Shown here piece after piece: positions 16,977 to 31,907 of a stretch of 64,000 nt of DNA. The DNA is taken from positions 5,394,430 through 5,458,429 of the forward strand of contig NZ_KQ031391.1 in assembly GCF_000966285.1 (NCBI RefSeq), given 5' to 3'. Position numbers and translations under genes: made by a program. The notes under the pieces are model-generated. The model saw only the letters and a program-made list of their open reading frames with translations. It did no database searches and was not told the DNA's origin. Source of the DNA: Pseudofrankia sp. DC12. GTDB taxonomy: Bacteria; Actinomycetota; Actinomycetes; Frankiales; Frankiaceae. Within the stretch, counting starts at the first letter, position 1. Each line of letters starts with the position of its first letter.

Positions 16977-17164
16977 CTTACAACTGTCGATCACGCAGGT
17001 TGATTCGTCGAACGGCAGCAATCTGGCGCCACTGGCCCAGGTCCGACGCCGTCCTGCCACGTGGGCGCGGGTACGGGCGGCGCGCGGGCCAAGATCGTGG
17101 CCGGTGACGGATCGCGGTGGCGTCGAAACCGGGGGCGGTGCGCCACCAGTTCCCCTGCGCAGTC

Positions 17165-17209
17165 AGTGATCAAGGCGGTCGCGCGCCCCATCGCGACGCT
17201 TTGATCACT
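17165..17209 (-). terminator. Hairpin downstream of the leftmost element gene
   Basis: Arms 17165-17183 and 17192-17209 pair over 18 bases with one bulge and one G-U pair, closing with AGTGATCAA/TTGATCACT. It lies about 100 bases beyond the stop of the minus-strand gene ending at 17306. It could instead be a recombination or operator site. Confidence 0.5.
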
Positions 17210-17305
17210 AGCCGCGCAGGCGGGGCGGCGTTCTATACCCCAATTTGTCCTCTTTATCTCTGCCCATCTTTCATTTAGGACATGTGACCTGGTGTGAGGA
17301 TTGGT

Positions 17306-17758
17306 CTATTGGGGCTGGCAGTGGCAGCCTGGCGGCCGGGTGATGCTGGCGAGTGCGATGACGGCGTTTGGGTCTTCGCGTTGGATGAGTCCGAAGATCC
17401 GGGCGCCGATGGCCGGGTCGTCGGTGGCGGTCAGAAGTGTTCCTACCGCGACCTGGTAGGGGGTCAGGCCTCGGTCGGGCATGCCGGTGACGTCGGGCGT
17501 CCAGCCGTCGGCCACAGTCTGCGCGTCGGGGTCGGCGTGGTGGGTGGTGTCGGGTGCGGAGGGGTCGGGCACGCCGCGTGGGAATCGGCGGAAGAGCAGT
17601 GTGGTCCCGCCGTCTAGGGAGGTGTGGTCGATGAACGCGGCCGGTGGGAGTCCTGCCGCGACGGTGGCGATCTCGGCGGGGGTCGCTCCGGTGAGGATCT
17701 CCAGGCCGTAGCCGTTGCCGGGGAGGGGCACGACGCGGGCCAGTGGCCAGCTACTCAT
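17306..17758 (-). CDS. Hypothetical protein coupled to resolvase-like gene
   Basis: 150 residues with no family I recognise. It starts MSSWPLARVVPLPGNGYGLEILTG and carries the stretch GLPPAAFIDHTSLDGGTTLLFRRFPRG. No membrane helix is seen. The C-terminus ends CHCQPQ. The start ATG overlaps the stop of the resolvase-like gene upstream (ATGA), so both are probably made together. It is the leftmost gene of the element. Confidence 0.6.
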   Translation of the reverse strand: MSSWPLARVVPLPGNGYGLEILTGATPAEIATVAAGLPPAAFIDHTSLDGGTTLLFRRFPRGVPDPSAPDTTHHADPDAQTVADGWTPDVTGMPDRGLTPYQVAVGTLLTATDDPAIGARIFGLIQREDPNAVIALASITRPPGCHCQPQ

Positions 17759-18162
17759 GCCGCGACCGCCGTCAGGGCGACGCTGGCGCCGAACGCGGCG
17801 GCCTGGGGGCCGAACGATGCGGTGTCGGCGGTGTCCCACCCGAATTCGCTGATCAGTAGCCGGACACCGGCATGCCGCAGCAACACCAGCTCCCGGGCGA
17901 TGTCGCGCTCGGTCGCGCCGATCGTCTCCAACGTGTCGACCAGGACGACATCCGCCCGGCGGGTCCGGACCATCCGGCGGACTGCTGCCCAGGCCCGGCC
18001 GTCGCCGCCACCCCGTCCGAGTTGGCAGACCACGGTGCCCGCGATCCAGCCACGCGCCGCGCACTCGGTCTCGAACGCTGCCCGCTGCTCCGCGAGCGAA
18101 GCCGCTCCGGCTCCGCGACGGGCGAAGCACACGGCCCGTACCCCATCTGACATACTCGCCAT
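17755..18162 (-). CDS. Resolvase-fold protein lacking serine recombinase catalytic residues
   Basis: A 135-residue protein aligning with the N-terminal domain of serine recombinases from strand 1 (VRAVCFARRG) through SLAEQRAAFETECAARGW, the second strand, VVLVDTLETIGATERDIARELVLLRHAGVRLLI and the DTAD segment that matches the DTST loop. The nucleophile position (normally Y-x-R-x-S) reads F-A-R-R-G, and the usual D-R-L-S-R arginines are replaced by D-T-L-E-T. No DNA-binding half follows. It is therefore probably a non-catalytic regulator or accessory factor. The start is backed by AAGGAGTGG. Confidence 0.65.
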   Translation of the reverse strand: MASMSDGVRAVCFARRGAGAASLAEQRAAFETECAARGWIAGTVVCQLGRGGGDGRAWAAVRRMVRTRRADVVLVDTLETIGATERDIARELVLLRHAGVRLLISEFGWDTADTASFGPQAAAFGASVALTAVAA

Positions 18163-18929
18163 CAGGTTCCACTCCTTCTGCGTAAGGATTGGGATCTAGG
18201 CCCGGGATTGGTGTTGGTAGCACCTTCCCGGGCCGCTTTATTGATTTATCTTTCGTGTCTCACGATACCGGATCGGGCCGTATGGTGCAGCCGATTCGGA
18301 GAATTCGAGCGGCCAAAAGGCGAACATTTACCGGCCCTCGGATGCCGCATTCCCTGCGCTTTCCTGGTTTCACGTGGAACCTTTCTCGTGCTCTCTTGCG
18401 GGACTTTCCGCGCCGTGCGGCGTGGGGTTTCCCGGCTGCGTGGCGTTTCTTTCTCCGTGCGCTAGTAGCGTCCAGCCCTTTCCGCTTCCGCGCAGGTAGA
18501 CGGCCTGGAGCGGCTGTCTTCGGCCCTCCCATTTTTCCTCCCCCATCCCCCATAGGTGCCGCACTTAGCGGCATGGTGGCGGTGTCAAGGGTCGCCCGAA
18601 GGGTGATCGCGTAGCGACGGGCGTAGCCCGCCCTTGATACCGTCGCCATGCCGTTAGATCATCGGCACAGCCGGGGAATGGGCAACCCTCTGCTACCCGC
18701 CGCGCGACGCGGTGTGGCCGTCCTCGCCGTGCGACGTCGCCTGTCGGTCACGTCTGGATTCCGGCGGTAAGCCGTTGAATCGGTCGACGCCGCGAATGGG
18801 GGATCTGCTGGCGCACGCAGGAACGGCTCAGAGTGGGTCCGGGCTCCATCGCGCCGACTGGGCCGGCTGTACCTAGTCGTTCTCGGAGGGAGTTTCCGAG
18901 GTGCGCGGCCCTGTTGGCATAATCGGTCG
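18163..18929. other. Long non-coding region with strong secondary structure
   Basis: A 767-base gap whose frames on both strands are unconvincing (an Arg/Lys-rich minus-strand frame at 18260-18649 runs straight through the structure). It is lower in GC at 18170-18330, has a pyrimidine tract at about 18525-18551, and then the four-way-junction fold at 18566-18656. Likely roles are a single-strand origin, transfer locus or non-coding RNA of the element. Confidence 0.5.
18557..18656. ncRNA. Four-way-junction structured locus (RNA or single-stranded DNA element)
   Basis: A long stem pairs 18569-18591 with 18631-18653, with only three non-Watson-Crick positions, all G-U/G-T wobbles. It can extend outward to 18565-18657. 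Inside it three hairpins follow with no unpaired base between them: 18592-18606 (6 bp, GAA loop), 18607-18617 (4 bp, GTA loop) and 18618-18630 (5 bp, GTA loop). A competing hairpin TGCCGC-N5-GCGGCA at 18557-18573 overlaps the base of the long stem. The wobble pattern favours an RNA or ssDNA function. Whether it is transcribed is unknown. Confidence 0.55.
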
Positions 18930-19409
18930 ATGGAGGACACGGGGGATGCGCTTGCACCAGACCGCCGGGGCCCAGGCGGTAGCCGCAAGGGCTCGGGTGG
19001 GGGGATGGTCACCGCCGATGAGCTTGCTCGACTCAAGCCAGAGGTAGAGCGGCGGCGGATCGCACTCGGGTTGACGATGGGCCAAGTGCTGGCTCCTGGC
19101 ACCTACCAGCGGCTTCTGCGGCTTCAACCGATCCAGGCTGGGACGCTTAAGCGGCTTGACGAGTCCCTGGCTGGGACAGATGGTGGTTGGCCTGCCGGCA
19201 CGGCCTACCGCCTCGCCGTGGGTACGATCACCCGGCTCGATGAGGCGAGCGCGGGTCCAGCCCATTCGGGCAGCGACGAGCGAGACCTTCTGTACGCGGC
19301 TCTGGGCGAAATCTTGATCGGGCTGGCGTCAGCGTCAGAGGAGCAGGTATATGCGGCGGGTGTGCTGGTGCGGAGCGCTCGGGACTTGCTAATCGGCACG
19401 ACGATCTAG
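18930..19409 (+). CDS. XRE-like helix-turn-helix protein
   Basis: A 159-residue small regulator candidate. The segment LARLKPEVERRRIALGLTMGQVL...TLKRLDESLAG...WPAGTAYRLAVG matches the actinobacterial XRE pattern in which TLxRLDxALxWxPGSA follows the recognition helix. After this come a charged spacer and a C-terminal helix pair (ERDLLYAALGEILIGLA). An internal ATG at 19005, close to the HTH, is a possible start after GGGTGGGGGG. Its location beside the structured region suggests control of element functions. Confidence 0.6.
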   Translation: MEDTGDALAPDRRGPGGSRKGSGGGMVTADELARLKPEVERRRIALGLTMGQVLAPGTYQRLLRLQPIQAGTLKRLDESLAGTDGGWPAGTAYRLAVGTITRLDEASAGPAHSGSDERDLLYAALGEILIGLASASEEQVYAAGVLVRSARDLLIGTTI

Positions 19410-19724
19410 AACCGTCAGGTCCCGCGACGGTAGGGGCAAGGCATGGCGGGCGCTTGGCGACGCACGGGCGGATCCCGGTGGTGCGTGATCGCTGTCCGAT
19501 GGGAGCTGCCGACCGCCGACGGATTTCACTGGGCCGCTTTCGGTCGTCAGCGACGGGCCGACGTCTCCGACACGCGCGGGCGGGGTGGCAGCCCGACACG
19601 TCCGGGGTGCCGAGCGAAGCGAGGCGGGGCCCCGGGGCGTGGCGGGCTGACGGGGCCCCGGCCGTGCGTGGCGCGTGCGGCGGCACGGCGCGGCCGGCGG
19701 AGCCGGCCCTTGAAGTAGTACAGA
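19410..19724. other. GC-rich, hairpin-rich intergenic region
   Basis: About 315 bases between convergent regulator genes. The 19540-19710 part has several self-complementary words, including a perfect GCCGGC-GGA-GCCGGC hairpin near 19692-19706 and paired GGGGCCCC blocks. It probably includes terminators for both genes. No gene is seen. Confidence 0.4.
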
Positions 19725-21146
19725 TTATTGGCGACGATCTTCGCTTGCACCGTCTCGGTGCGGGAATGACTCAATGCCAGCCGTATGTGTCTGCATAGTG
19801 GTGGTGAACGACTCGATGGCGGCTGCGGTGTCGCGGGCGGCGGTCGAGTCGCGGAATCGGTCGTCCCTGAGGGCATGGGCGACGCGGGCGACGCTGGTCC
19901 GGATCTGGTGTACGCGACGCTCAGGTGGGATGTCGAGGATCGGAGTGACCGCGTCGGCGGCACCGTCCAGGACTCCTTGCCGGAGACGGGCTAGGGCCAG
20001 GTCGGCGCGCGCTATCGCTTCGGAGTTGTAGGAGCGTTCGTGTGGGGCGGCGGTCTGGAACGCTTCTACGGCTCTCTGGGCCGCGCGTTCGGCGTTGGGA
20101 GCGTCGGGAAGCCAAGCGGCGGTTCCCGCGACGATGCCGAGTTGTTCGGGTAGGGGCAGAGCGAGGATGCCGCCGATGGCGTCGAGGTCGTCCAAGCGGA
20201 CGTGGTCACGGAGGTCGGTGGCCTTGCCGATGGCGGCGGCTGAGAGGTCGGCTCGACCGGCAGCGGCCCAGGCGCGGGCTTCCTGGATGGCTGGCAGGAC
20301 AGAGAGTGATCCCGTGAACGACGGGGCTTCGGCTGCGGCAAGCATGGCGAGGTTGGCGGACTCGGTGTAATCGCCAGTCCAGTAGGCGGTGGCGGACTGT
20401 TCCGTTCGCACGAAGACACGCAGCCCGTGATGGCCGGATCTCTCGGCGCATAGAAGGGCGCTCTGTTGGTAGGACAAGGCGGCTTCGCGTTGTCCCATGT
20501 CGCGGGCTGTGTGGGCAAGCATGGCGCAGATGGTGCCGGCAAGGAAGTAGAGGTCACGACCGCGCGCTGGCGAGTTCGATCGGTCAAGAAGACGGAACGC
20601 GGCGCGACGGGCCACAACCAGGTCATCCGCTAGGAAGGTCAGTTGATCTCCGTACGCACGTGCGAGACGGCGGACGTCGGAGGACAGGAGGTCAACGAAC
20701 TCGGCCGGCAGGGCATCGTCGACGCGCACGAGGAAGCGCAGGGCGTCCCCAGCGTCGCCTGTCACGAGAGATGCCCTCTCTGCTGGACCGCGCGGCTCGG
20801 ATAGCTCTGCCTGCCGGGGTACGTCAGCGCCCCTCTCGCCACGGTAGGTCGGAGCCTGGACGTGTGGCTCCGCCCGGCCTACCTGTTGTGAGGCAACTCG
20901 CGGCTTCGGCGGGGCCAATAGGTCATCGGCAGATACTCCGAAGATCCGTTCGAGAACCCGGCATGCGGACTCATGGGGACGGCCTACGGCACCGGCTCGC
21001 CAGTGCTTTACGGTCCGCTCGCTGGCGGTGACGTTCAGGCCCATCGTCTGGGCGGTGTCGTTGAAACGCCGGCAGAACGGCGCGACGGACCAGGCTCGCT
21101 CGTTCATGAGCTGAGCGAGCAGGGTGCGCGGTGGCCTGGGCGGCAT
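19725..21146 (-). CDS. Large XRE-type regulator with helical repeat (TPR-like) domain
   Basis: A 473-residue protein. The N-terminal HTH is LLAQLMNERAWSVAPFCRRFNDTAQTMGLNVTASERTVKHWRAGAVGRPHESACRVLERIFGVSADDLL, the pattern of NsdA-like and related Streptomyces regulators. The rest is helical, with repeats such as AYGDQLTFLADDLVVARRAAFRLLDR and AALSYQQSALLCAERSGHHGLRVFVRTEQSATAYWTGDY that resemble tetratricopeptide repeats. Such proteins often sense a small ligand or partner. It is divergent from the DUF397 gene, an arrangement typical of XRE-DUF397 pairs. GGAG lies just before the ATG. Confidence 0.75.
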   Translation of the reverse strand: MPPRPPRTLLAQLMNERAWSVAPFCRRFNDTAQTMGLNVTASERTVKHWRAGAVGRPHESACRVLERIFGVSADDLLAPPKPRVASQQVGRAEPHVQAPTYRGERGADVPRQAELSEPRGPAERASLVTGDAGDALRFLVRVDDALPAEFVDLLSSDVRRLARAYGDQLTFLADDLVVARRAAFRLLDRSNSPARGRDLYFLAGTICAMLAHTARDMGQREAALSYQQSALLCAERSGHHGLRVFVRTEQSATAYWTGDYTESANLAMLAAAEAPSFTGSLSVLPAIQEARAWAAAGRADLSAAAIGKATDLRDHVRLDDLDAIGGILALPLPEQLGIVAGTAAWLPDAPNAERAAQRAVEAFQTAAPHERSYNSEAIARADLALARLRQGVLDGAADAVTPILDIPPERRVHQIRTSVARVAHALRDDRFRDSTAARDTAAAIESFTTTMQTHTAGIESFPHRDGASEDRRQ

Positions 21147-21421
21147 CTGGGCTCCAGGGTGGTCGGCTACTGCTGCTGATCGTGGCGCGTTGGTGTCGTC
21201 ATGTCACTAGCGGGGCCACGCGATGGCCCTCGGTGCGTGGCTAAGCCGCCTTTCTGTGGCCCATGGTTGCCCTTGACTGCCCTCGGTCTGTCACTGGCAG
21301 ACGGCGAGAAGCGACGGATAGTGACTCTTGTCGGCCGTTTGGCCGCGATGACTCGCCCGGTCCGCGTCCCTCCTCGCCTGGCGCGCGGGCCGGGCGGCCC
21401 CCTCAGCGAAAGGGATTGATC

Positions 21422-21706
21422 ATGGACGAGCGGCATGAGTATTCGGCTGCGCAGCGTCGGAAGCCTGACCTGTCGGGTGTGTCGGCTGGGGATCTGGACT
21501 GGTTTCACTCGGCGGAGAGCAACGGCGCGGGCGGGATGTGCGTGGAGATCGCACCCATCCCGGGTGGCGGGTTCGCCATGCGCGACTCGATGGACCCGGA
21601 CCGGCTGTTGGCGTTCTCGGCCGGTGAGTTGGACAGCCACATTCGGGCAGCCAAGGGCGGGGAGCTGGATCGGTTCCTGATCGCGGCGGAGCGCGCGACG
21701 TCCTAG
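21422..21706 (+). CDS. DUF397 domain protein
   Basis: 94 residues with the DUF397 layout: LDWFHSAESNGAGGMCVEIAPIPGGGFAMRDSMDPDRLLAFSAGELDSHIRAAKGGELD, that is W-x-S, a central CVE, RDS-x-D and a final FS-x-x-E helix. DUF397 proteins are partners of XRE regulators, as in the WhiJ-type systems of Streptomyces. The ATG has GAAAGGG about eight bases upstream. It is divergent from the large XRE regulator. Confidence 0.75.
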   Translation: MDERHEYSAAQRRKPDLSGVSAGDLDWFHSAESNGAGGMCVEIAPIPGGGFAMRDSMDPDRLLAFSAGELDSHIRAAKGGELDRFLIAAERATS

Positions 21707-21792
21707 CCGGCCGGGTGCCGGGTCGGTCTGCTCGTGGGGGCCGGCTCGGCACCTGCGGGCGGGTGTGGCCGGCGGACTGGGGGTGCCCGGTG

Positions 21793-22311
21793 ATGTGGAT
21801 GGCGGCGTTGGCGGACGGGTCCGGCGCGGTGTTCGTCCCGGTGCTGCCGGTCGAGCTGCCGGCGGACCGGTCGGGGCTGTTGGTGCGCCCGGCGGGTCCG
21901 GTCGCGGCGCATAGCCCGTTGTCCGTGTTGGAACAGAACGCGGCGGCGGTCGTCGGGGATCCGGCGGATCTGCATTTCATCGCGGCGGAACGGTCGTCGT
22001 TGACGCGGGTGGGTCTGGGCCTGGTGGCGTCGTCGGCGGTCGCGGTGTCGGTGGTGGTGCTGTGCCCGGTCGGGGTGTCGGCGCAGCGGTCGGCGCTGGC
22101 GTTGGCGGTCGGTGACGTGCTCTACGCCCGGACGGGGCGCCCGGCGGTGATGTGCGAGGTGATGCCGCGCATGGTGTCGGGTCCTGGGGCGACGGGGCAT
22201 CCGGTCCTGGTCCGGGATGCGGCGGGTGCGGTCACGGCGGCGTTGGTGTGGCAGGTCGTCCCGTGGGCGCCGGTACGCGGCTGGCTGGACCGACTGGCCG
22301 GTTCCGGATGA
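21793..22311 (+). CDS. Orphan protein A of the methyltransferase module
   Basis: 172 residues, unrecognised. The C-terminal half, AALALAVGDVLYARTGRPAVMCEV, later LVWQVVPWAPVRGWLDRLAG, resembles the same region of the gene at 23360 (ALALAVADVL..., AVWEVTPEWYAPDWLAGL), so the two appear related. A GTG directly precedes the chosen ATG. The stop overlaps the methyltransferase ATG (ATGA). No membrane helix or catalytic motif is clear. Confidence 0.55.
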   Translation: MWMAALADGSGAVFVPVLPVELPADRSGLLVRPAGPVAAHSPLSVLEQNAAAVVGDPADLHFIAAERSSLTRVGLGLVASSAVAVSVVVLCPVGVSAQRSALALAVGDVLYARTGRPAVMCEVMPRMVSGPGATGHPVLVRDAAGAVTAALVWQVVPWAPVRGWLDRLAGSG

Positions 22312-23363
22312 GGGCCGGGCCGGTAGCCGTGTGGCGGGATGTGCCGGCGGTGTTCGCAACCGACCTGGTCACGCTGCGGCGGGTCGCGGACCGGCTGCGC
22401 GCTACCGGGCCGGCGTCGGCGGGAAGTGTTCGGCCGGTCTGCGTGGCGCGGGCCGGTGGTTCTAGGAGACGGGACGGAACGGGCGTGGTCAGGATCGGTT
22501 CCGGCGGGTTTGAGGGCGTCGGGCCTGACGGTGAGTACGGGCCGCTGAGCGGCCTGTCCGGGTCTCGGGCCGTGACGGCGGTCGATCTGCGCACGGATGT
22601 GGCGCATGCGGCGCGGGTCTACAACTACCTGACCGGCGGGAAAGATCACTTCCCGGCGGACCGGCTGGCGGCCGAGAGAGCGCTGGCGGTGGTGCCGGAC
22701 CTGCGAACCGGAGCGTTGGAGAACCGGGCGTTCCTGCTGCGGGCGGCGCGTGTCCTGGCGGAGGACGGGATCGATCAGTACCTGGACGTCGGTACCGGTC
22801 TGCCGGCGGATCCGAACCTGCACGAGGTCGTGCAACGGCTGATTCCGGCGGCACGGGTCGCCTACGTCGACAACGACCCGCTGGTGTTGGCTCATGCCCG
22901 CGCGCTGCTGACCAGCCGGCCGGAAGGTGTGACGGCCTACGTGGATGCGGACGTGCGTCGGCCGGCGGACATCCTGCGGGACGCGGGGCACTGGCTGGAC
23001 CTGTCGCGGCCGGTGGCGGTCTGCGTCGGCGCGCTGCTGCACTTCATCCCGGACGAGGACGACCCGGCCGGCATGGTCGCCGATCTGCTGGGCGCGCTGG
23101 CGCCGGGAAGCTGCCTGGTGCTGAGCCATGGCACGGGGGACTTCCGCCCGAAGGAGGCCGACGCGGGTGTGCGGGCCTACCGGGATAGCGGGATCACCGT
23201 GCGGGTCCGTAGCCGGGCCGAGGTCACGGCGCTGGTGCCGGCTGGGATGCGGATCGGCGCTCCGGGGGTCGTGCCGGTGCAGCGCTGGCGGCCGGACCAT
23301 GGACCCGGCGGGGTCACAGACGGGCAGGTCGGTCTCTACGGGCTGCTGGCGCGTAAGCCATGA
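22308..23363 (+). CDS. SAM-dependent methyltransferase, SAV2177/DUF574 family
   Basis: A Rossmann methyltransferase of the actinobacterial SAV2177 family. Family hallmarks are TDVAHAARVYNYLTGGKDHFPADR, FLLRAARVLAEDGIDQYLDVGTGLP (SAM-binding glycine loop), VAYVDNDPLVLAHARALL (acidic loop) and PVAVCVGALLHFIPDEDDP. Substrates of this family are unknown. The coupled ATG (overlap with the previous stop) gives 351 residues. A GTG at 22485 would give 292, closer to the family length of about 270. Its stop overlaps the ATG of the next gene, so four genes are coupled in a row. Confidence 0.85.
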   Translation: MRAGPVAVWRDVPAVFATDLVTLRRVADRLRATGPASAGSVRPVCVARAGGSRRRDGTGVVRIGSGGFEGVGPDGEYGPLSGLSGSRAVTAVDLRTDVAHAARVYNYLTGGKDHFPADRLAAERALAVVPDLRTGALENRAFLLRAARVLAEDGIDQYLDVGTGLPADPNLHEVVQRLIPAARVAYVDNDPLVLAHARALLTSRPEGVTAYVDADVRRPADILRDAGHWLDLSRPVAVCVGALLHFIPDEDDPAGMVADLLGALAPGSCLVLSHGTGDFRPKEADAGVRAYRDSGITVRVRSRAEVTALVPAGMRIGAPGVVPVQRWRPDHGPGGVTDGQVGLYGLLARKP

Positions 23364-23887
23364 GCAGGCCGGGAACCCCGGTGACGGTGACGGTGGCCCG
23401 GGAGGGCGGCGGCGAGATCACCGTGCCGGTGCCGCGCCTGACGGTGGAGCTTCCGGCCCGGCGGGGCGGTGTGGTGTACCGCAACCGTGATCCCGAACTG
23501 GATCTGTCGCTGTCGGCCACGGCTGACGGGGTCGGGTTCGTGCCGGTCGTGTGGTCGGAACGGACCCGGGTCGCGTGGGACCTGCGCCGGTCGTCGTCGG
23601 TGGCATCGGCGGTCATCTGCGGGGCCGGCGCGTGGCCGGTGCGGGTGGCGCTCGCGCTGGCGGTCGCGGACGTACTGCGGGCCGGACGCGATGACCTGCG
23701 CACGGTGGTGACCTACGCGGACCGGCCGCTACCGGCTCCGCGTCAGCTCGCGATCCCTCATGAGGTCCTCGTGTCCCACGGCGGTCACACCCGGGTCCGG
23801 GCAGTCTGGGAAGTCACCCCGGAGTGGTACGCGCCGGACTGGCTGGCGGGCCTGTCGCCCGACCGGGCCACGGCGGCGACCGCGTGA
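23360..23887 (+). CDS. Orphan protein B, related to protein A
   Basis: 175 residues, unrecognised. The N-terminus is beta-rich (VTVTVAREGGGEITVPVPRLTVELPAR). The C-terminal part, VRVALALAVADVLRAGRDDLRTVVTY...VLVSHGGHTRVRAVWEVTPEWYAPDWLAGL, parallels protein A on the other side of the methyltransferase. ATGA overlap joins it to the methyltransferase, and GTGA overlap joins it to the next small gene. Confidence 0.6.
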   Translation: MSRPGTPVTVTVAREGGGEITVPVPRLTVELPARRGGVVYRNRDPELDLSLSATADGVGFVPVVWSERTRVAWDLRRSSSVASAVICGAGAWPVRVALALAVADVLRAGRDDLRTVVTYADRPLPAPRQLAIPHEVLVSHGGHTRVRAVWEVTPEWYAPDWLAGLSPDRATAATA

Positions 23888-24078
23888 ACGACCGGACCAT
23901 ACCGATCAGCCTGCCGTGGTCAGACGGGTGGCGAGTGCCGCCGTACCTGGCGCCGGTGTCGTTCGTGGAACAGCTCGCGGCGGCCCGGCTCTACGCGGCG
24001 GCCGAGAAGAAGACTGCCCGGCCTGGTGACCAACCAGGCGCGGGTACGGACGCGACAGGTCGTGAGGGTTCACGCTGA
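23884..24078 (+). CDS. Small protein, last gene of the coupled module
   Basis: 64 residues starting at a GTG that overlaps the preceding stop. The sequence VNDRTIPISLPWSDGWRVPPYLAPVSFVEQLAAARLYAAAEKK is less repetitive than non-coding frames here. No family is known. It is followed by a strong terminator. Confidence 0.5.
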   Translation: MNDRTIPISLPWSDGWRVPPYLAPVSFVEQLAAARLYAAAEKKTARPGDQPGAGTDATGREGSR

Positions 24079-24139
24079 AAATGTGGTCCGACAAGGCCAC
24101 CACACAGGAGATGGGCCTTCGGCTGCGCGTTCCGTCGGG

Positions 24140-24171
24140 CAGGGGCACAGACAACGATGTCTGTGCCCCTG
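24140..24171. terminator. Bidirectional terminator hairpin
   Basis: Perfect 14-bp stem (24140-24153 and 24158-24171) with a 4-base loop, between the convergent methyltransferase module and kinase gene. It is followed by TCTCGTGTC. Confidence 0.75.
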
Positions 24172-24221
24172 TCTCGTGTCCGGGGATGGCTCGGGTGCGG
24201 ATCGGGTCGGCGTCGTGCGGG

Positions 24222-26252
24222 TCAGGTGGGGCGGTGCCAGAGAGCGACGGTGCCGTCGGTGGAGCCGGTGGCGATGGTCGTGGCGTCGGCGCTGATGGCG
24301 AGGTCGGTGACGGGGGCGCCTGCGGTGGCGAACGCGCCTGCGTCGGTGGGGGCCTTCGGGTCGTCGATGTGGATGAGGTAGAGGTCGGGGCCGGCGGCTA
24401 TCGCGGCGAGCGTGCCGTCGTGGCTGAGCGCGATCGCAGTTCCGGCGGGTGCGACGACCGCGATGCCAGATGCGGTGAGGTGGGCGGGGTCGGCGATGTT
24501 CCAGAGGAAGACGGTGCCGTCGTCCTGGGCCGCGATGGCGCGGGTTCCGTCGGCGGCCATCGCGATGCTGGTGGGGTGCCCGGTGGTGGCCGCGTCGGAG
24601 GTGTCGATGGTGAACGTGTCGGCGTGGCGGAGTTGCATGCCGTCGGGGACGGTGATGAGGAAGTCATCGGCGCGGGAGTCGTAGGCGAGGCCGGTCACGG
24701 CGCGGCCGGGGAACTGGAGTGCGCCGTTGGGGGTGAGGGTGGCCGCGTTGGTGATGTTCCAGAGGGAGACACGTCCGGCGTTGTTGCCGGCGGCGAGGAT
24801 TTTCCCGTCGTCGCTGATCGCGATGTGGTGGTCGGCGGTGTCGGGCATCGACGCGGTGAGTGTGGGGTGCGTGGGGTCGGAGACGTCCCAGAGCCGGACT
24901 GTCCCGCTGTCGGTCGTCGCAAGGGTCCGCCCGTCGGGCGTGAAGACGGCGGCGAGCGTAGGCGGGCCGGGTAGGTAGCCGAGGGTGAGGGGGTGGGCGG
25001 GGTCGTGGATGTCGACCAGGCGGGCGCTGCCCCCGGTCGAGGCGACGAGAAGCGCCGGGGCGCCTGGTAGGTAGCGCACGGCGGTGATCGCGCCGGGGGC
25101 TTTCAGGGTCGCGAGAGGCTTGGCGCTGGTCAGCGGCGAGAGTGAGACGTCCGGGCCGGGGGTTGTGGTCTGGCTGGTGGGTGTGCCTGCCACGACACGG
25201 GAGCGTTGCGGGTCTGCCCGGTGGGGGCGGGTGAGGGTGAGCGTGAGGACGACGGCGAGAACGCCCGCGGTGAGGGTCGCGGCGGCGAGAGCGGCACGCC
25301 CGCGGCTTGGCCGGTGGCGTGGGGGTGCGGGTGGGTCTGGCCATAGCGGGGTGAGCGCGGCCGGGCCGGGATGCTGGGGTGGCTCGTCGTGGGTGACCGG
25401 GCCGGCGGGGAGCTGGTGGGCGGCGGGCAGATCGACCAGGGTGTGGTGCAGGTCGGTGGCGCTGGGCCGGCGGGTGGGGTCTTTCGCCATCGCGGCCGCG
25501 ACGACGGCTGCCAGCGGGGCGTCGATCCCGGTCAGGTCGACCGGCTCGAACAGGATCTTCTCGATCAGATCCTCGGCGGTGGTAGCCCGGCCGAAGGGGT
25601 AGCGGCCGGTGGCGGCGTAGAGGACCAGGCCACCCCAGGCGAACACGTCGACGGCTGAGGTGATGGGTAGGGCGTCGGCTTGTTCGGGGGCCATGAACGG
25701 CAGGCTCCCGACGCGGGCGCCCTCGACGGTCAGGCGCGTGACGTCGGTGTCTGTGGCCCGGGAAATCCCGAAGTCGATGACCCGGGGGCCGGACGGCGAC
25801 AGGATCACGTTTGACGGTTTGAGGTCGCGGTGGATCAGCCCGGCGCCGTGGATCGCGGAGAGGGCTGCGGCGACGTTGACGGCCAGGCCGAGGACTTCCA
25901 ATGGCGGGAGCGGCCCGGTTGTACGGACGGCGTCGGCCAGCGTGGCGCCGGGGATGTAGTCGGTGACGTAGTACGGCGGCGTCGCCTCGACCACCGCATC
26001 CAACACAGCGGCGGTGTAGAAGCGTGGGACGCGGCGGGCGTAGGCAACCTCGCGGGCCAGGCGGGCGCGGGCTCCGGGGCCGCTGGGGGTGTGGATGACT
26101 TTGACGGCGACCAGGTAGCCGTCGGGGTTGCGGGCCAGATAGACGGTGCCCATGCCGCCTGTGCCGAGGCGGCGGCGGATCAGGTAGGGGCCGACCCAAC
26201 GCGGGTCCGTGTCGCCGAGGGGCTCACCTCCTGGCCCGTCGGGCACGGTCAC
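24222..26252 (-). CDS. Ser/Thr protein kinase with C-terminal WD40-like beta-propeller
   Basis: 676 residues. The kinase domain (about 20-275) has the glycine loop RRLGTGGMGTVYLARN, catalytic Lys in LVAVKVIH, HRDLKPSNVILSP, DFGISRATDTD and APEQ, so it looks active. A Pro-rich linker and one membrane helix (RAALAAATLTAGVLAVVLTLTL, about 320-341) lead to an outside domain with repeats ending in VRLWDVSDP, VSLWNITN, VFLWNIADP and VALWHRPT, a WD40-like propeller expected to sense ligand or protein. The GTG start overlaps the upstream gene stop (GTGA). Cargo or regulatory role in the element is inferred. Confidence 0.88.
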   Translation of the reverse strand: MTVPDGPGGEPLGDTDPRWVGPYLIRRRLGTGGMGTVYLARNPDGYLVAVKVIHTPSGPGARARLAREVAYARRVPRFYTAAVLDAVVEATPPYYVTDYIPGATLADAVRTTGPLPPLEVLGLAVNVAAALSAIHGAGLIHRDLKPSNVILSPSGPRVIDFGISRATDTDVTRLTVEGARVGSLPFMAPEQADALPITSAVDVFAWGGLVLYAATGRYPFGRATTAEDLIEKILFEPVDLTGIDAPLAAVVAAAMAKDPTRRPSATDLHHTLVDLPAAHQLPAGPVTHDEPPQHPGPAALTPLWPDPPAPPRHRPSRGRAALAAATLTAGVLAVVLTLTLTRPHRADPQRSRVVAGTPTSQTTTPGPDVSLSPLTSAKPLATLKAPGAITAVRYLPGAPALLVASTGGSARLVDIHDPAHPLTLGYLPGPPTLAAVFTPDGRTLATTDSGTVRLWDVSDPTHPTLTASMPDTADHHIAISDDGKILAAGNNAGRVSLWNITNAATLTPNGALQFPGRAVTGLAYDSRADDFLITVPDGMQLRHADTFTIDTSDAATTGHPTSIAMAADGTRAIAAQDDGTVFLWNIADPAHLTASGIAVVAPAGTAIALSHDGTLAAIAAGPDLYLIHIDDPKAPTDAGAFATAGAPVTDLAISADATTIATGSTDGTVALWHRPT

Positions 26253-26821
26253 GGCCGGTCCACGCCCGCCACCCGCTCACCGGCCGGCGCCGGGTACTGG
26301 CTCGGCGGCGGCGGGCCGGCGGTGGGGAAACGGTCGGCCGGTGGCGGGGTGTGGTCGGGCTGCGGGTCGGTGGCGTGGGTGGTGGCCTCGCCGAGGTGTG
26401 CCCGCTGGTACAGCTCCACCGCGAGCCGGTGGATCAGACGGTCTTCATGGTGGCGGCGGACCGTTTCGCTCGTGACGCGGTAGTAGGTGCCGGCCTGCTC
26501 GCGGCGCTCCGTCCTGGTCAACGGCGCCCGTCGTGATACGGGCCGCGCGGCCGGGTGCAGGTCGAGCAACGCTTCCAACGCGGGTGTGGCGGGCCGGCCG
26601 AGCGCGGCGACGGCGGCGACCAGGACCCGGTGCGCCCGGATCGCCCGGTCATGACGACTCCCAGCTCCCTGCGCGGGCGGGCAGAGCAGGTCGGTCAGCG
26701 CCTGGCCCGGATCAGTCGCGACCAGGTCAGCCGCGTGGGACACCCCATAGGCCAACAGCTCGTGCAGGAGCCCGTCGAGCAGGTCAACAGGGTCGGCGGC
26801 GGGCGGGTCAGGCTGTGGCAC
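26249..26821 (-). CDS. Hypothetical protein coupled to the kinase
   Basis: About 190 residues from a GTG with GGGAG upstream. It is mostly helical: PVDLLDGLLHELLAYGVSHAADLVATDPGQALTDLL and RAIRAHRVLVAAVAALG, then EQAGTYYRVTSETVRRHHEDRLIHRLAVELYQR, a possible DNA- or partner-binding helix, and a Pro-rich tail. No family is recognised. A longer frame to 27058 would run through the 11-bp repeat array and is rejected. Overlap with the kinase start suggests a joint function, perhaps as kinase substrate. Confidence 0.6.
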   Translation of the reverse strand: MPQPDPPAADPVDLLDGLLHELLAYGVSHAADLVATDPGQALTDLLCPPAQGAGSRHDRAIRAHRVLVAAVAALGRPATPALEALLDLHPAARPVSRRAPLTRTERREQAGTYYRVTSETVRRHHEDRLIHRLAVELYQRAHLGEATTHATDPQPDHTPPPADRFPTAGPPPPSQYPAPAGERVAGVDRP

Positions 26822-27185
26822 GGCTACTCCCGGATGATCAGTCCGCGTACGGAAGACACATCGAACACCTATCGCGATCAGACAGCTACACCACGGCGTT
26901 CGCGGGTGGCTTGTCGCGGTGTTGTGACGGCGGCGCCCACTTCCCGCCGGATCCACGCCGGATCCACGCCGGATCGGCGCCGGGTTCGCGCCGGGTTCGC
27001 GCCGCCGGATCGGCGCCGGTTCTGCGCCGGGTTGGCGCCGGGTTGGCGCCGGAAACACCTGGCCATATTTGACGGTCTGCGTACTGCGCGATCCACGCGG
27101 GCAGCGGAACCTGAAAGGGCACCGGCACGGGCCACCACCGGCCGGGGGTCGTTTCCGTTTGTCTGACGCTGGGAGGTTTCCTTTG
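26822..27185. promoter_or_regulatory. Divergent intergenic region containing the 11-bp repeat array
   Basis: This gap separates the kinase operon from the small-membrane-protein/transfer operon. It contains the tandem array at 26945-27057, then about 120 bases with the likely promoter of the rightward operon, ending in GGGAGG before the ATG at 27186. Confidence 0.5.
26945..27057. repeat. Array of 11-bp direct repeats (iteron- or clt-like)
   Basis: Nine head-to-tail copies of CGCCGG(G/A)T(T/C)NN with a tenth partial copy. Units start at 26945, 26956, 26967, 26978, 26989, 27000 (with 3 extra bases), 27014, 27025, 27036 and 27047. Neighbouring copies are often identical in pairs (CGCCGGATCCA twice, CGCCGGGTTCG twice, CGCCGGGTTGG twice). 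The 11-bp period puts each core on the same DNA face, as in protein-binding iterons. Confidence 0.85.
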
Positions 27186-27350
27186 ATGCTGCCCTCAGAG
27201 CGGCGGCCGTTGTTCCGGCCGCTGGTTCTCGGGTTCTGCGGCCTGTATCTGACGCTCGCGGGCCTGGACGGTCAGCTCCCGTGGCCGGTCGCGCTGCTCG
27301 GCGGCGGGATGTGCTGGTTCGGGCTGCGGCTACGCCGGGGCCGACCATGA
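27186..27350 (+). CDS. Small membrane protein
   Basis: 54 residues with one or two hydrophobic helices (RPLVLGFCGLYLTLAGL and WPVALLGGGMCWFGLRL) and an Arg-rich end. The ATG follows GGGAGG by about 9 bases. The stop overlaps the next ATG. Small membrane proteins like this occur near the translocase genes of Streptomyces plasmids (Spd proteins for spreading); assignment is by context. Confidence 0.6.
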   Translation: MLPSERRPLFRPLVLGFCGLYLTLAGLDGQLPWPVALLGGGMCWFGLRLRRGRP

Positions 27351-27547
27351 CCAGCCCGAGACAGCAGGCCCGTGACGAGCGGGAACGCCGCGCCGCCGAA
27401 CGTATCGCGGCTACCGCGCTGATCCTCTACGTGCTGTGCATGATCGCGGTCGGTGCGGCGGGGATCATGCTCGGCTGGCTCGCGGCCCGGTACGAGGAAC
27501 GCGCGGCGCCGCCGGCACCTAACCCGGTCTACCTCATCCAGACCTAA
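27347..27547 (+). CDS. Small single-pass membrane protein
   Basis: 66 residues: a charged N-terminus (RQQARDERERRAAERIAA), one helix (ALILYVLCMIAVGAAGIMLGWLAA) and a short outside tail. It is coupled to the previous gene by ATGA. Probably a transfer or spreading accessory protein by position. Confidence 0.6.
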   Translation: MTSPRQQARDERERRAAERIAATALILYVLCMIAVGAAGIMLGWLAARYEERAAPPAPNPVYLIQT

Positions 27548-27663
27548 CCCCTTCTCTCTCCCCCCTCTTTCCCTTTCCCTAGCCGGGGCGCTGGTTTCGT
27601 GCGCCCTGAAACCGGCCGGTACCCGGCTGGCCGGAACCTTTTTCCTTTCGTATTGGAGTGGTC

Positions 27664-28011
27664 ATGAACGTTATTCCGGTCGACATGTCGAAGGTGATTT
27701 CGGCGGTCGTGATGTCGGACCCGGTGCCGTCGCTGTACGACGGCAAGCAGCGGACGAACTTCGACGGGGTTCCGCTGTGGGACCTGGACGTGACGGTCGC
27801 GGTGAGCGGGGCCGGCGCGTCGGTGCTGAAGCTGCGGGTCGCGTTGGCGTCGGCTCCGAAGGTCGAGATGTGCCAGCCCGTGACGCTGTCCGGGCTGCGG
27901 GCGCGGGTCTGGGAGATGAACGGCCGCCACGGCGTCGCGTGGAGCGTCGAGACGGTGGCTCCGCTGGGCGCGACGCCCCCGGCGGGCAACCCCGGTAAGC
28001 GCGAGAACTGA
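27664..28011 (+). CDS. Pra-like replication/integration/excision activator
   Basis: 115 residues resembling the small activator annotated in Streptomyces AICEs: LPVDMSKV-type start, VPLWDLDVTVAVSGAG (conserved W-x-x-D-V), VLKLRVALASAPKV and PVTLSGLRARVWEMNGRHGVAWSVETV, matching the pattern of a VKI strand followed by PVxFxGLT and a final YS strand. GGAG lies just before the ATG. It sits upstream of the translocase, as in pSAM2-like elements. Resemblance is from memory of the family and needs a profile search. Confidence 0.5.
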   Translation: MNVIPVDMSKVISAVVMSDPVPSLYDGKQRTNFDGVPLWDLDVTVAVSGAGASVLKLRVALASAPKVEMCQPVTLSGLRARVWEMNGRHGVAWSVETVAPLGATPPAGNPGKREN

Positions 28012-28133
28012 TCACTGCGGCGGGCGGCGGCCCTGGCCTTCGGGCCTTGGGCTGGCCGCCCGTCGTCGTCTCCCGGCCCTTCGCGCCGGTTCGTCCTGGT
28101 CTTCGGTCTGTGATCGGAAGTGGGGTGCGGGTG

Positions 28134-29903
28134 ATGTCAAGGATGTTCACGGTGGGCTCGGCGCGGATGACGTCGCGGGGGTTTCGCCTTCTGGTGCGCC
28201 CGTCGGTGGCCTGGATGGTCGGGCGGGTGGTGGCCCGGTGGGTGTGGGACTGGCGGCGTGAGCTGACCCTCGGGGTCGGTGTGCTGCTGACGCTGGGCAT
28301 GTTCAGCGGCTCGACCGGCGGCCGGGTGGTGCTGGTGGTGGCCGGCGGGCTGGTCCTGGGCGTGGGCCGGCTACGCGCGGGCCTGGCCGGGTGGCTGGCC
28401 GGGGGCCGGTGGCGGCGGCGGTGGGCGGGAGCGTGCCGGGCGTGCCGGCTGTCGGTGGCCTGGGAGCGAACCCCTCGGGTCCGCCGGATACGCACGACCC
28501 CGGCCGGCTTGGAGCTGGCGGTCCAGGTCCGCGCCGGCCAGTCCCTCGGCGACCTCGACAACGCCCGTCCGGCGCTCGCGGCGGCACTCGGCGTCCGGTC
28601 ACTGGCCCTGTCCGGTGACCCGCTGCACGCCGGGCGGGCCACGGTCCTGCTGCGGATGCACGACCCGCTGGCCCGGACGGTGGACCCGGACCCACTGCCA
28701 GCCACGACGGACAGCAACGACGGATCGGGCGTGCCGGCGGCGCGGTCGCTGCCGGGGTCGGGTTCGCGGCCGGCGACACGGTCTGCCGGGTCGGGTCTGG
28801 TGGACCTGCGGGCGGTGCCGGTGGGGCGGCGGGAGGACGGCCGTCCGTGGCTGCTGCCGCTGGCCGGCTCCCACGTCCTGGTCGCCGGAGCGACCGGGGC
28901 CGGTAAGGGCTCGGTGTTGTGGGCGATCGTGCGGGCACTCGCCCCGGCGGTCCGTGCCGGGCTCGTCGAGATCTGGGCGTGTGATCCCAAGGGCGGGATG
29001 GAACTCGCCTTCGGCGCACCCCTGTTCGCGAAGTTCGCCTACACGTTGGACGACATCGCCGATCTCCTCGATGAGGCGGTGGAGCGGATGCAGGCCCGTG
29101 CTGGGCGGCTGCGCGGGGTCGCGCGGACACATGTGCCGGCGCCGGGTGATCCGCTGGTGGTCATCCTGCTCGATGAGCTGGCGCATGCCGCGTCGTATGC
29201 GCCGTCGGCGATTCGTCAGCGGGTGGCGTTGTCGGTGCCGCTGCTGCTCGCGGAAGGCCGCGCACCCGGCTTCGTCGTAGTCGCTGGGGTGCAGGACCCG
29301 CGTAAGGAGACGGTCCCGTTCCGGGACCTGTTCCCTACCCGGGTTGCGCTGCGGATGACCGAAGCCGGGCAGGCGGACCTTGTCCTTGGCCGGGGGTCGT
29401 GGGCGGCCGGCGCGCACGCCGAGACGATCGCGATGGACGCGGGCGGCACGGGCTACGTCCGCACCGATGACCAGCCGGTGCCCTCGCTGGTCCGGGCGGC
29501 CTGGCAGGACGACGACGACATACGTCTAGTCGCGCGGATCTTCGGCACTGGGGACCCGTTCCCCGCACCCGACCGGCCCGACCTAGCCGACGCGCCGGAC
29601 ATGCCCGGGGTGCCGGATGTGCCGGCGCTGCCGGGGCCGGTGGGCGGCTGGGTACCGGACCTGACTCCTTACCAGGCGGCGCCTGGCAGTGGTGTGGCGT
29701 GGGCGGACGGCGGCGGCCTGGCCGATCCGCCGACGGTGCCGCTGCGTGGTTGGTGGCCCCCGCCCCCGCCGGCGGCTCTGCCCCCTGCCGAGCCGGCTGG
29801 TCCGCCCCGGATCGACGAGGACGATGTAGACGGCTGGGAGCGGTGGGCGGCCGACTGGCGGCGCCGCAACGGCCTCGACGGTCTCGACGGCGGCGGGGCC
29901 TGA
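28134..29903 (+). CDS. FtsK/SpoIIIE-type DNA translocase (TraB/TraSA-like)
   Basis: About 589 residues. Two N-terminal membrane helices (LTLGVGVLLTLGMFSG and VVLVVAGGLVLGVGRLRAG) are followed by a motor domain with Walker A GATGAGKGS (about 252-260), the WACDPKGGMEL strand, Walker B VVILLDELAH and the PGFVVVAGVQDPRKE segment typical of FtsK-like Tra proteins. These move double-stranded plasmid DNA between mycelial cells as a hexamer and recognise short repeats (TRS/clt) through a C-terminal winged helix. The C-terminal 90 residues here are Pro/Asp-rich. Start choice is uncertain (a GTG lies 8 codons upstream). Confidence 0.85.
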   Translation: MSRMFTVGSARMTSRGFRLLVRPSVAWMVGRVVARWVWDWRRELTLGVGVLLTLGMFSGSTGGRVVLVVAGGLVLGVGRLRAGLAGWLAGGRWRRRWAGACRACRLSVAWERTPRVRRIRTTPAGLELAVQVRAGQSLGDLDNARPALAAALGVRSLALSGDPLHAGRATVLLRMHDPLARTVDPDPLPATTDSNDGSGVPAARSLPGSGSRPATRSAGSGLVDLRAVPVGRREDGRPWLLPLAGSHVLVAGATGAGKGSVLWAIVRALAPAVRAGLVEIWACDPKGGMELAFGAPLFAKFAYTLDDIADLLDEAVERMQARAGRLRGVARTHVPAPGDPLVVILLDELAHAASYAPSAIRQRVALSVPLLLAEGRAPGFVVVAGVQDPRKETVPFRDLFPTRVALRMTEAGQADLVLGRGSWAAGAHAETIAMDAGGTGYVRTDDQPVPSLVRAAWQDDDDIRLVARIFGTGDPFPAPDRPDLADAPDMPGVPDVPALPGPVGGWVPDLTPYQAAPGSGVAWADGGGLADPPTVPLRGWWPPPPPAALPPAEPAGPPRIDEDDVDGWERWAADWRRRNGLDGLDGGGA

Positions 29904-29905
29904 CG

Positions 29906-31291
29906 ATGGCCACCGACACGGCAGGCGGCGGGGAGTGTGTCCGTCCGATCCGGCTGGCCGGACAGACCGATCACGTTGACCTGGCGACGGGGGAGATCCG
30001 CCGGGCGTCGGGTCCGCCGGTGGTGCATGTGCGGTGCAGCAACCGGCGGGCGTCGGCGTGCCCTACCTGCTCCAAGCTTTACCAGCGCGACGCGCGGCGG
30101 ATCGTCGTGACCGGCCTGGCCGGCGGGAAAGACAGCGCGGCCCGGCTCGCGGGATGTCCCGCCTGGTTCGTGACGTTGACCGCTCCGTCGTTCGGGGCGG
30201 TGCATTCCCGCCGGGCCGGCAAGGGCGCCGAATCGCAGGTGTGCCGGCAACGACGCGGGACCTGTGAACACGGCCGGGCGCTCGGCTGCACCGTGCGCCA
30301 CGGCGCCGATGACCGGCGCCTCGGGGAACCGCTCTGTCCGCGCTGCTTTGACTACGGCCGGGCGGTCGTCTGGAACAGCATGCTGCCCACGTTGTGGAAG
30401 GCGACGCGGGATCGGTTGGAATCCGCGGTGGCGTCTGCTGCCGGTCTGACGGTCACCGGGCTGCGCCGTGCGGTCCGGGTGTCGTTTATCAAGGTTGCGG
30501 AGATGCAGCGGCGGGGCCTGGTCCACCTGCATGTGGTGATCCGGGTTGATGGGCGGGACGGTGATGGCGGGCTGACGGTCGCGCCGGGCTGGGCGGCCGG
30601 GGAGCTGGTCGCGGACTGCCTGCGTGACGTGCTCGCGACGGTGGCCGTGGATGCTCCCGACCCTGCCGGGGTGGCGTTGCTGGACACGGCCGGAGCGCTG
30701 CCCGTGCAGCCTGCGACGGATGGCCGGTACGCGGTGGGCTGGGGCCGACAGGTCGATATCCGCCGTATCCGCCTCGGTGGGGACACGGACGCGGGGAAGG
30801 TCGCGAACTACCTCGCGAAGTATCTGACGAAATCGACGCTCGACGGCGGCGCGCTCGACTCCCGGGTCCGGTCGCTGGCGCACCTGGCGCGGCTGCGGCT
30901 GCGGGATCACCCTCGGCGGTTGGTGCAAGCGTGCTGGCGGCTGGGCACCGACCGGGCCTTTGCCGAAGCGCTCGACGCTGCGGCGGGCCGTGCTCCGGGC
31001 CGTACCGTCGGGCTGTTGCGCTGGTCGCACGGTTTCGGGTTCGGCGGCCACTGGATCACGAAAAGTCGGCGGTACTCGACGACGTTCGGGGCGGTGCGGT
31101 CGGTGCGGCGCCGGTGGGCGCGGATGCTCGCGGCGGCCCTGACCGGCCGTCCGTTCGCCACCGATGAGACCGGCGGCTATGTGGCGGTCGATGAGTTCGG
31201 CCGGCTCGACGGTGACCCACAGACCGTGGTTCTCGGGTCCTGGCGGTATGCCGGCCGTGGCCGTGACCCCGTGCGGGGTGGTGGGTCATGA
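29906..31291 (+). CDS. Rolling-circle replication initiator (RepSA-like, HUH nuclease)
   Basis: A 461-residue replication initiator. An N-terminal Cys/His region (VHVRCSNRRASACPTCSKLYQRDARR) is probably zinc-binding. HUH signature HLHVVIRVDGRD lies near residue 206, and the tyrosine motif KVANYLAKYLTKS near 300 is expected to hold the nicking Tyr. It nicks the double-strand origin to start rolling-circle replication of the excised element. The ATG lies two bases after the translocase stop, so they share a transcript. Its stop overlaps the next gene. Confidence 0.88.
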   Translation: MATDTAGGGECVRPIRLAGQTDHVDLATGEIRRASGPPVVHVRCSNRRASACPTCSKLYQRDARRIVVTGLAGGKDSAARLAGCPAWFVTLTAPSFGAVHSRRAGKGAESQVCRQRRGTCEHGRALGCTVRHGADDRRLGEPLCPRCFDYGRAVVWNSMLPTLWKATRDRLESAVASAAGLTVTGLRRAVRVSFIKVAEMQRRGLVHLHVVIRVDGRDGDGGLTVAPGWAAGELVADCLRDVLATVAVDAPDPAGVALLDTAGALPVQPATDGRYAVGWGRQVDIRRIRLGGDTDAGKVANYLAKYLTKSTLDGGALDSRVRSLAHLARLRLRDHPRRLVQACWRLGTDRAFAEALDAAAGRAPGRTVGLLRWSHGFGFGGHWITKSRRYSTTFGAVRSVRRRWARMLAAALTGRPFATDETGGYVAVDEFGRLDGDPQTVVLGSWRYAGRGRDPVRGGGS

Positions 31292-31821
31292 GAGGGCGTC
31301 GGTCTGGTCCGCTGCCGGGAGAGAACGCGTTGCCGTTCGACGTCGAACCGGAGCCCTCCGGCGAACCTGGCGGGCTGTTGGCCGGGGTGGAGGTGAGCAC
31401 CGTAGGTGCCGCTCTGGCTGTTGACCCTGACCCTGTCCCTGTGCCGGTGGTGTCGGTCGACGAGGTGGGAGCGGACGTGTCGGGGGTGGGTGGGTGGGCC
31501 CCCGCCGCGGCGGCGGAGGTCACGGCGGCGGGCCGATCGGCCCGGTCCGCGTCTGCCCGGCGGGCGGGTCGCCGTGCGGCTGGGCCTGGTGGGCGTGGTG
31601 CTCGGCCGGTGGCGCGGGCGGCTGGCTCGCCGGTCCTGGCCGGCGATGACGGGGCGGTGACGGCTGCCGGTGTGTCTGAGTCGGATGCGGTCGGGCGGTG
31701 GGTGGCTGCGCAGCTCGCGCGGGCTCCTGCGCCGAGTGCTGCCCGGGTGGCGTCGATCGTGGATGTTCTGACGGCGTTGGCGGACGGTGAGACCGGCGAA
31801 CCTTCTGCGGGTCGCCGCTGA
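31288..31821 (+). CDS. Hypothetical protein coupled to Rep
   Basis: 177 residues with an acidic, Val/Pro-rich front half and an Ala/Arg/Gly-rich centre. Only the end (SESDAVGRWVAAQLARAPAPSAARVASIVDVLTAL) looks folded. It overlaps the Rep stop by ATGA. In AICEs an excisionase often follows Rep, but no winged-helix excisionase motif is visible here. Confidence 0.5.
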   Translation: MRGRRSGPLPGENALPFDVEPEPSGEPGGLLAGVEVSTVGAALAVDPDPVPVPVVSVDEVGADVSGVGGWAPAAAAEVTAAGRSARSASARRAGRRAAGPGGRGARPVARAAGSPVLAGDDGAVTAAGVSESDAVGRWVAAQLARAPAPSAARVASIVDVLTALADGETGEPSAGRR

Positions 31822-31845
31822 CGGGTCGGGCGCCTGGGGGCCGGT

Positions 31846-31874
31846 GCCCCCGATCCTGGCTGGGGATCGGGGGC
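31846..31874. terminator. Terminator between the Rep operon and integrase
   Basis: An 11-bp stem (GCCCCCGATCC and its complement) with a 7-base loop lies between the convergent genes ending at 31821 and 31908. Confidence 0.65.
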
Positions 31875-31907
31875 CGCTGCGACCGGACGGTGTGGGGTGC
31901 CGGCGGG

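Follow-up and report, generated by a model that had tools for sequence, protein, structure and literature searches.

A conserved folding element of actinobacterial AICEs and plasmids and its possible role as a single-strand origin

The AICE and its folded locus

The window (the whole stretch of 64,000 nucleotides that was analysed) contains an AICE, an integrated element of ~16.3 kb. Its bounds (17264-33536) follow from comparison with a relative whose corresponding site is empty (G002 contig 77); there, window positions 17130-17263 and 33537-33703 align to adjacent sequence with an overlap of 3 nt. The AICE encodes an FtsK/SpoIIIE-type (TraB-like) transfer ATPase (28215-29903, + strand, PF01580), a RepSA rolling-circle initiator (29906-31291, + strand, PF20199, E 2e-126) and a serine integrase (31908-33476, - strand, PF00239, PF07508 and PF13408). 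A small serine-resolvase-like gene with a weak PF00239 match (17755-18162, - strand) adjoins the element described below in several relatives. The AICE is inserted mid-way in a ~220-nt interspersed repeat (window 17130-17263 and 33537-33640) that has many copies in this genus, and both halves of the repeat match identical places in G001 and G002. It is possible that the serine integrase targets a copy of this repeat.

The element lies on the + strand, the strand of RepSA, in a gap (about 18163-18929) that is non-coding as the original prediction had stated. In the excised circle it would fall ~3.5 kb downstream of RepSA. Its main stem, P2, pairs 18569-18591 with 18631-18653 over 23 bp without any A-C or other mismatch, and is supported by sequence, fold and covariation; the 5' arm, which is also supported by relatives, ends in the near-invariant GTCAAGGG and the 3' arm starts with CCCTTGA. 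P2 encloses three abutting hairpins with no unpaired base between them. Hairpins H1 (TCGCCCGAAGGGTGA, 18592-18606, 6 bp, loop C-GAA-G) and H3 (CGGGCGTAGCCCG, 18618-18630, 5 bp, loop C-GTA-G) are supported by the fold, covariation and parsed relatives. Hairpin H2 (TCGCGTAGCGA, 18607-18617, 4 bp, loop C-GTA-G) is supported by the fold, a motif count and parsed relatives, and holds a TAGCGA that is not conserved in the family. The four-way junction formed by this stem and the three triloop hairpins had been predicted and was confirmed from sequence and fold, but its extent was understated. With flanks folded, in the window and in relatives, the structure enlarges to ~18542-18682 (141 bases) through an internal loop and outer stems. 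In the minimum free energy fold, the outermost stem pairs 18542-18551 (CCCAT, CCCC) with 18673-18682, and the outer stem P1 pairs GTGCCG (18556-18561) with CGGCAC (18663-18668).

Two promoter-like sequences lie on the same strand. A motif search identified TTGATA (18634-18639; TTGACN or TGGACN in the family) as a -35-like hexamer within P2. GATCAT (18657-18662), 17 nt from TTGATA, matches RAYNMT, a motif shown by count to be conserved in the internal loop, and is -10-like except for its first base. The RNA fold of the + strand has an energy of -70.1 kcal/mol (z -8.9) and was equalled by none of 200 shuffles, while that of the minus strand is much weaker (-49.6, z -3.7). Folded as DNA, the locus scores -37.3 (z -7.2).

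The original prediction also included an upstream hairpin (GCCGC-ACTTA-GCGGC) that competes with the base of the stem to give two exclusive folds. This hairpin is kept in several close relatives, is lost in others (e.g. GCCGAACTTAGCGGA) and is missing from other classes of the element; therefore, the two exclusive folds are not conserved in the family.

Distribution and covariation of the family

Relatives of the locus were found by blastn in the genus and the family. A covariance model built from 20 cores of these relatives detected the element in 32 of the 58 relatives and, across the class, in 64 of 297 genomes (about a fifth), with up to 16 copies per genome. A blastn search of plasmids with the whole locus gave no match, but the core as query matched 32 plasmid records from several orders. 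The twenty listed plasmid matches are all in unannotated intergenic DNA, so a conserved protein frame, which would have refuted the original prediction, is not indicated; most are from actinobacteria and three are from Acidiphilium. The copy on pACRY03 (Acidiphilium, L058:6984-7049), an alphaproteobacterial conjugative plasmid, is convincing at 47 bits and lies near IS elements. It may point to spread beyond actinobacteria. An exact pattern scan of viral contigs gave no match, and Rfam 15 contains no family that reaches gathering score, with weak chance matches only.

The absence of a homologous structure with compensatory changes would also have refuted the original prediction, and this check revealed strong covariation instead. 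Across 77 distinct elements 92.4% of cells are paired, and double (compensatory) changes occur in 24 of the 31 core pairs. None of 500 shuffles was comparable, and structures slid along the alignment were only 31-45% paired. The 77-core alignment was fitted to the covariance model and so leans towards it; a separate test on the starting MAFFT alignment also showed strong covariation. The three-hairpin array lacks any unpaired base in 54 of 62 parsed relatives. Together with the compensatory changes, this shows that the four-way junction is not due to chance.

The element is not universal. Plasmids pIJ101 and pJV1 gave no covariance-model match at E up to 1, and it is also absent from four Streptomyces-type RepSA records. 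In G050 (L091:6803, 10785 and 13757), three tandem copies in one orientation are spaced 3-4 kb apart upstream of a RepSA gene.

Strand polarity and genomic context

The wobble pairs of the stem are strongly polar. Read on the motif strand there are 195 G-T pairs and 16 A-C pairs (p 3e-40, with each pair counted as independent). This count was restricted to the stem and used symmetric scoring, in which G-T and A-C are treated alike. An initial count of G-U pairs on the covariance-model alignment (122:7) is possibly biased, and the signal is diluted in a local alignment that crosses the internal loop (333:226). The large excess of G-T over A-C under symmetric scoring indicates that one strand acts in single-stranded form.

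The hairpin loops suggest that this strand is DNA. DNA mini-hairpins of extraordinary stability are known to follow a rule of GNA or GNNA loops with a closing G-C pair (PMC4686876). C-GNA-G accounts for 149 of 186 hairpin loops, with all four bases occurring at N, and GNNA accounts for 12 more (161/186 together). Loops typical of RNA are nearly missing from the same set (GNRA 2, UNCG 0), and the opposite strand has no GNA loops. From the wobble polarity, the DNA mini-hairpin loops and the coupling to the RepSA strand described below, it is very likely that the element is a conserved folded single-strand DNA element of the + strand, and not an RNA or a double-stranded palindrome. While each of these signals is shown, the reading itself is inferred and not proven.

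Orientation was examined for 105 copies in 40 genomes. Forty of these copies, from 9 genera in 7 families, have a RepSA gene within 20 kb. Every one of the 40 shares the strand of that gene, with positions that range from 3 kb downstream of it to 18 kb upstream. Collapsed to genera, the result is 9 of 9. The RepSA proteins that the element accompanies fall into two sequence clusters, and it also occurs with Rep_1 and with MobA/VirD2 relaxases, on the same strand each time, showing that it is independent of any one kind of replicon.

The surroundings differ among classes. The Frankia-type tyrosine-integrase class has a near-constant order of transfer ATPase, rep, small gene, element and integrase; the small gene, of ~99 aa, precedes the element at a nearly fixed 131-140 nt and the tyrosine integrase lies ~0.3 kb downstream. 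Just upstream of the 99-aa gene, AICEs of this class (L098:9480-9560 and equivalents) contain a second, highly conserved non-coding inverted repeat (GGTCCCGGCGGGTGC...AACACCCGACCGGGACCTGA), which may be an operator or a leader RNA. It was considered as an alternative double-strand origin and rejected, as it is without a conserved CTTG. In pPA43082 the element is ~200 nt upstream of an unrelated Rep_1 gene.

In Micrococcales and related conjugative plasmids the element has one orientation and is placed before mobC and the relaxase, in most cases after a VbhA-Fic-recombinase operon. The stop codon of the serine recombinase is 20-60 nt upstream of the element in most relaxase plasmids, and a Verrucosispora plasmid likewise has the element upstream of a relaxase. 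A set of related Micrococcales and Cutibacterium conjugative plasmids (L055, L059, L156-L161) shares the order VbhA-Fic-(Abi)-serine recombinase, element, small gene, mobC and relaxase, and a conserved putative oriT (GAGCAAGCTATA) with an inverted repeat upstream of mobC. In the MOBP plasmids, the minus strand has an inverted repeat with TATAGCTTG/CTC after it. This site resembles a nic consensus and is taken here as a putative oriT, and the genes run towards it. Inferred from this putative oriT and the gene order, the transferred strand could be the complement of the fold strand.

Two Streptomyces-like genomes carry the fold in another setting, away from any Rep. G158 has three ~770-bp palindromic units (L138:9850-10622, L139:9266-10009 and L140:9530-10330) that are 82-86% identical, have the fold at both ends and carry a central palindrome (L138: AAATGGATGACACTT...AAGTGTCATCCATTT). 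In G167 (L136, L137, L141, L142 and L143) the fold ends ~380-500 nt inverted repeats which flank different chromosomal genes, with 0.5-3 kb of cargo and no evident target duplication. Paired inverted copies that bound a unit are seen in these two genomes and not in AICEs or plasmids, where a single copy is the usual state.

Proposed single-strand origin and rival readings

The best fit among the roles first proposed is a single-strand origin (sso). The element may represent a new family of sso on the displaced strand, possibly acting as a hairpin promoter, to which a probability of roughly 0.5 is assigned on sequence evidence alone. When the excised AICE or a plasmid replicates by rolling circle, the displaced + strand (rep sense) would become single-stranded, and folding of the element would give a rigid four-way junction topped by the three DNA mini-hairpins. 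A host priming enzyme would then recognise the long duplex, which contains the TTGAC hexamer, beside the RAYNMT internal loop. This enzyme might be RNA polymerase, acting as it does on hairpin promoters, or equally DnaG. A primer copied from the 5' arm would allow the complementary strand to be made and the circle to become double-stranded. Exposure of the displaced strand, second-strand priming, the identity of the reading enzyme and conversion to double-stranded DNA in vivo are all inferred.

Two properties of an sso are satisfied: a strong intramolecular fold on one strand of a non-coding site, and a fixed orientation to the initiator with free position (40/40 on the RepSA strand). The element follows the strand of the initiator irrespective of initiator type or distance, as would suit a single-strand origin but not a double-strand origin. 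The sso1 of ICEBs1 is likewise orientation-specific (PMC4595007). AICEs are believed to be transferred as double-stranded DNA (PMC3218068), which weighs against the reading in that only the replication cycle, and not transfer, would call for an sso. TTGACN in the 3' arm is followed 15-18 nt further by RAYNMT in the internal loop in 37 of 54 non-redundant elements, compared to a mean of 0.56 and a maximum of 4 in 1000 shuffles. These motifs are positioned as the -35 and -10 elements of a hairpin promoter would be, with the 5' arm as its putative template. However, the first base of the -10-like motif is a purine instead of the T of promoters, and TANNNT occurs in only 2 of 54; priming by RNA polymerase therefore remains a proposal. 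Other observations also count against an sso. The MOBP plasmids may transfer the complement of the fold strand, the units in G158 and G167 have the fold at both ends away from Rep, and pIJ101, pJV1 and the four Streptomyces-type RepSA records are without the element. These objections keep the sso claim near one half.

If the element were a double-strand origin (dso), Rep would nick at CCCTTGA(C/T) in the 3' arm and would recognise the site by its cruciform. The window reads CCCTTGATA, to be compared with the pC194-type nick site CTTGATA (PMC10378824); others have placed RepSA in the pC194 family from its motifs and nick site (PMC3218068), and the strand is fixed relative to Rep. CTTGATA is what raises this reading, and the independence of the element from the replicon is what lowers it. 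A dso has to be specific to its cognate Rep, whereas this element occurs alongside RepSA, Rep_1 and relaxases, and some RepSA replicons have no copy of it. In addition, one class reads CCCTGGAC with CTTG altered, and the distance to rep is highly variable. A dso is thus unlikely. A single-strand recombination or transposon-end site, in which a recombinase or HUH transposase would act on the folded strand for integration or module exchange (like integron attC or folded ssDNA-transposon ends), is also considered improbable, though it is not excluded. Recombinases are frequent neighbours (a tyrosine integrase in the Frankia-type class, a serine recombinase in most relaxase plasmids and the resolvase-like gene in the class of the window), and two genomes have inverted-repeat units with variable cargo bounded by the fold, without obvious target duplication. 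However, these recombinases belong to families that are unrelated to one another, and many copies have none nearby. The AICE of the window is integrated at 17263/33537 and not at the fold, and no evidence of crossover was seen at the element itself.

A structured RNA (a regulatory RNA, leader or 3'-end structure) from the + strand, another of the roles first proposed, would account for the stable RNA fold with its G-U asymmetry and for the position of the element shortly after the recombinase stop codon or the ~99-aa gene. It is disfavoured because the loops obey the DNA GNA/GNNA rule and are almost never RNA tetraloops, and because coupling to the RepSA strand over distances up to 18 kb is unexpected of a local RNA. 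In addition, the genes upstream in the window are on the other strand and no Rfam family matches at gathering score. An RNA is therefore not likely. Least likely is a double-stranded cruciform, a protein-binding palindrome or a functionless spreading repeat. The element is palindromic and multi-copy in several genomes, but the 195:16 polarity, the restriction of GNA loops to one strand and the strict location and orientation in AICEs and plasmids argue against this reading.

The single-strand origin reading can also be compared with known systems. Like the ssos of Gram-positive rolling-circle plasmids and ICEs (ssoA with RSB and CS-6; sso1 of ICEBs1), the element is non-coding, forms long imperfect hairpins, is orientation-specific to the initiator and is modular across replicons. 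One hairpin in the window holds TAGCGA, as in ssoA. In contrast to known ssos, the element, whose sso activity is inferred, has a four-way junction and GNA loops. Identity with ssoA, and CS-6 (consensus TAGCGA/T; PMC10378824, PMC4598088) as a defining motif, were rejected since TAGCGA/T is found in only 33 of 113 copies, although it is present in the window. The element resembles the Frpo/ssi ssDNA promoters of enterobacterial conjugative plasmids as a folded single strand with -35-like and -10-like sequences and a proposed primer or transcript start. It differs from them in its fold, in its purine-first -10-like motif and in not being upstream of leading-region genes in relaxase plasmids. The sti of pIJ101 has a single-strand conversion role. 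This and other conversion sites of Streptomyces plasmids share the host group and the proposed role of the element, but its covariance model has no match in pIJ101 or pJV1.

Integron attC and other folded single-strand recombination sites are also DNA folded on one strand with conserved ends and variable hairpins. Unlike attC, the element has a constant four-way junction, and no integron integrase or attC core sites were seen. The fold-backs of Streptomyces telomeres and parvovirus-type hairpins are branched ssDNA with purine-rich mini-loops, like the element; however, the element is internal to circular or integrated elements.

A bolder reading, to which only a low probability is given, is that the element is a general-purpose folded ssDNA module of Actinomycetota, recognised by one host factor and recruited by unrelated HUH systems (RepSA, Rep_1 and relaxases) and by transposon-like units. 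If true, a single DNA fold would be a replication start, a transfer signal and a transposon end.

In the open-access literature searched, no single-strand origin of actinomycete integrative elements was found. The family is new to Rfam, although about one in five of the sampled genomes in the class contains it. Selection acting on DNA folds, as opposed to RNA folds, is seldom documented, and three independent signals of it agree for this element. The element offers a handle on how AICEs and plasmids complete their replication, and it may serve as a module for stable actinobacterial vectors and as a marker for finding new mobile elements.
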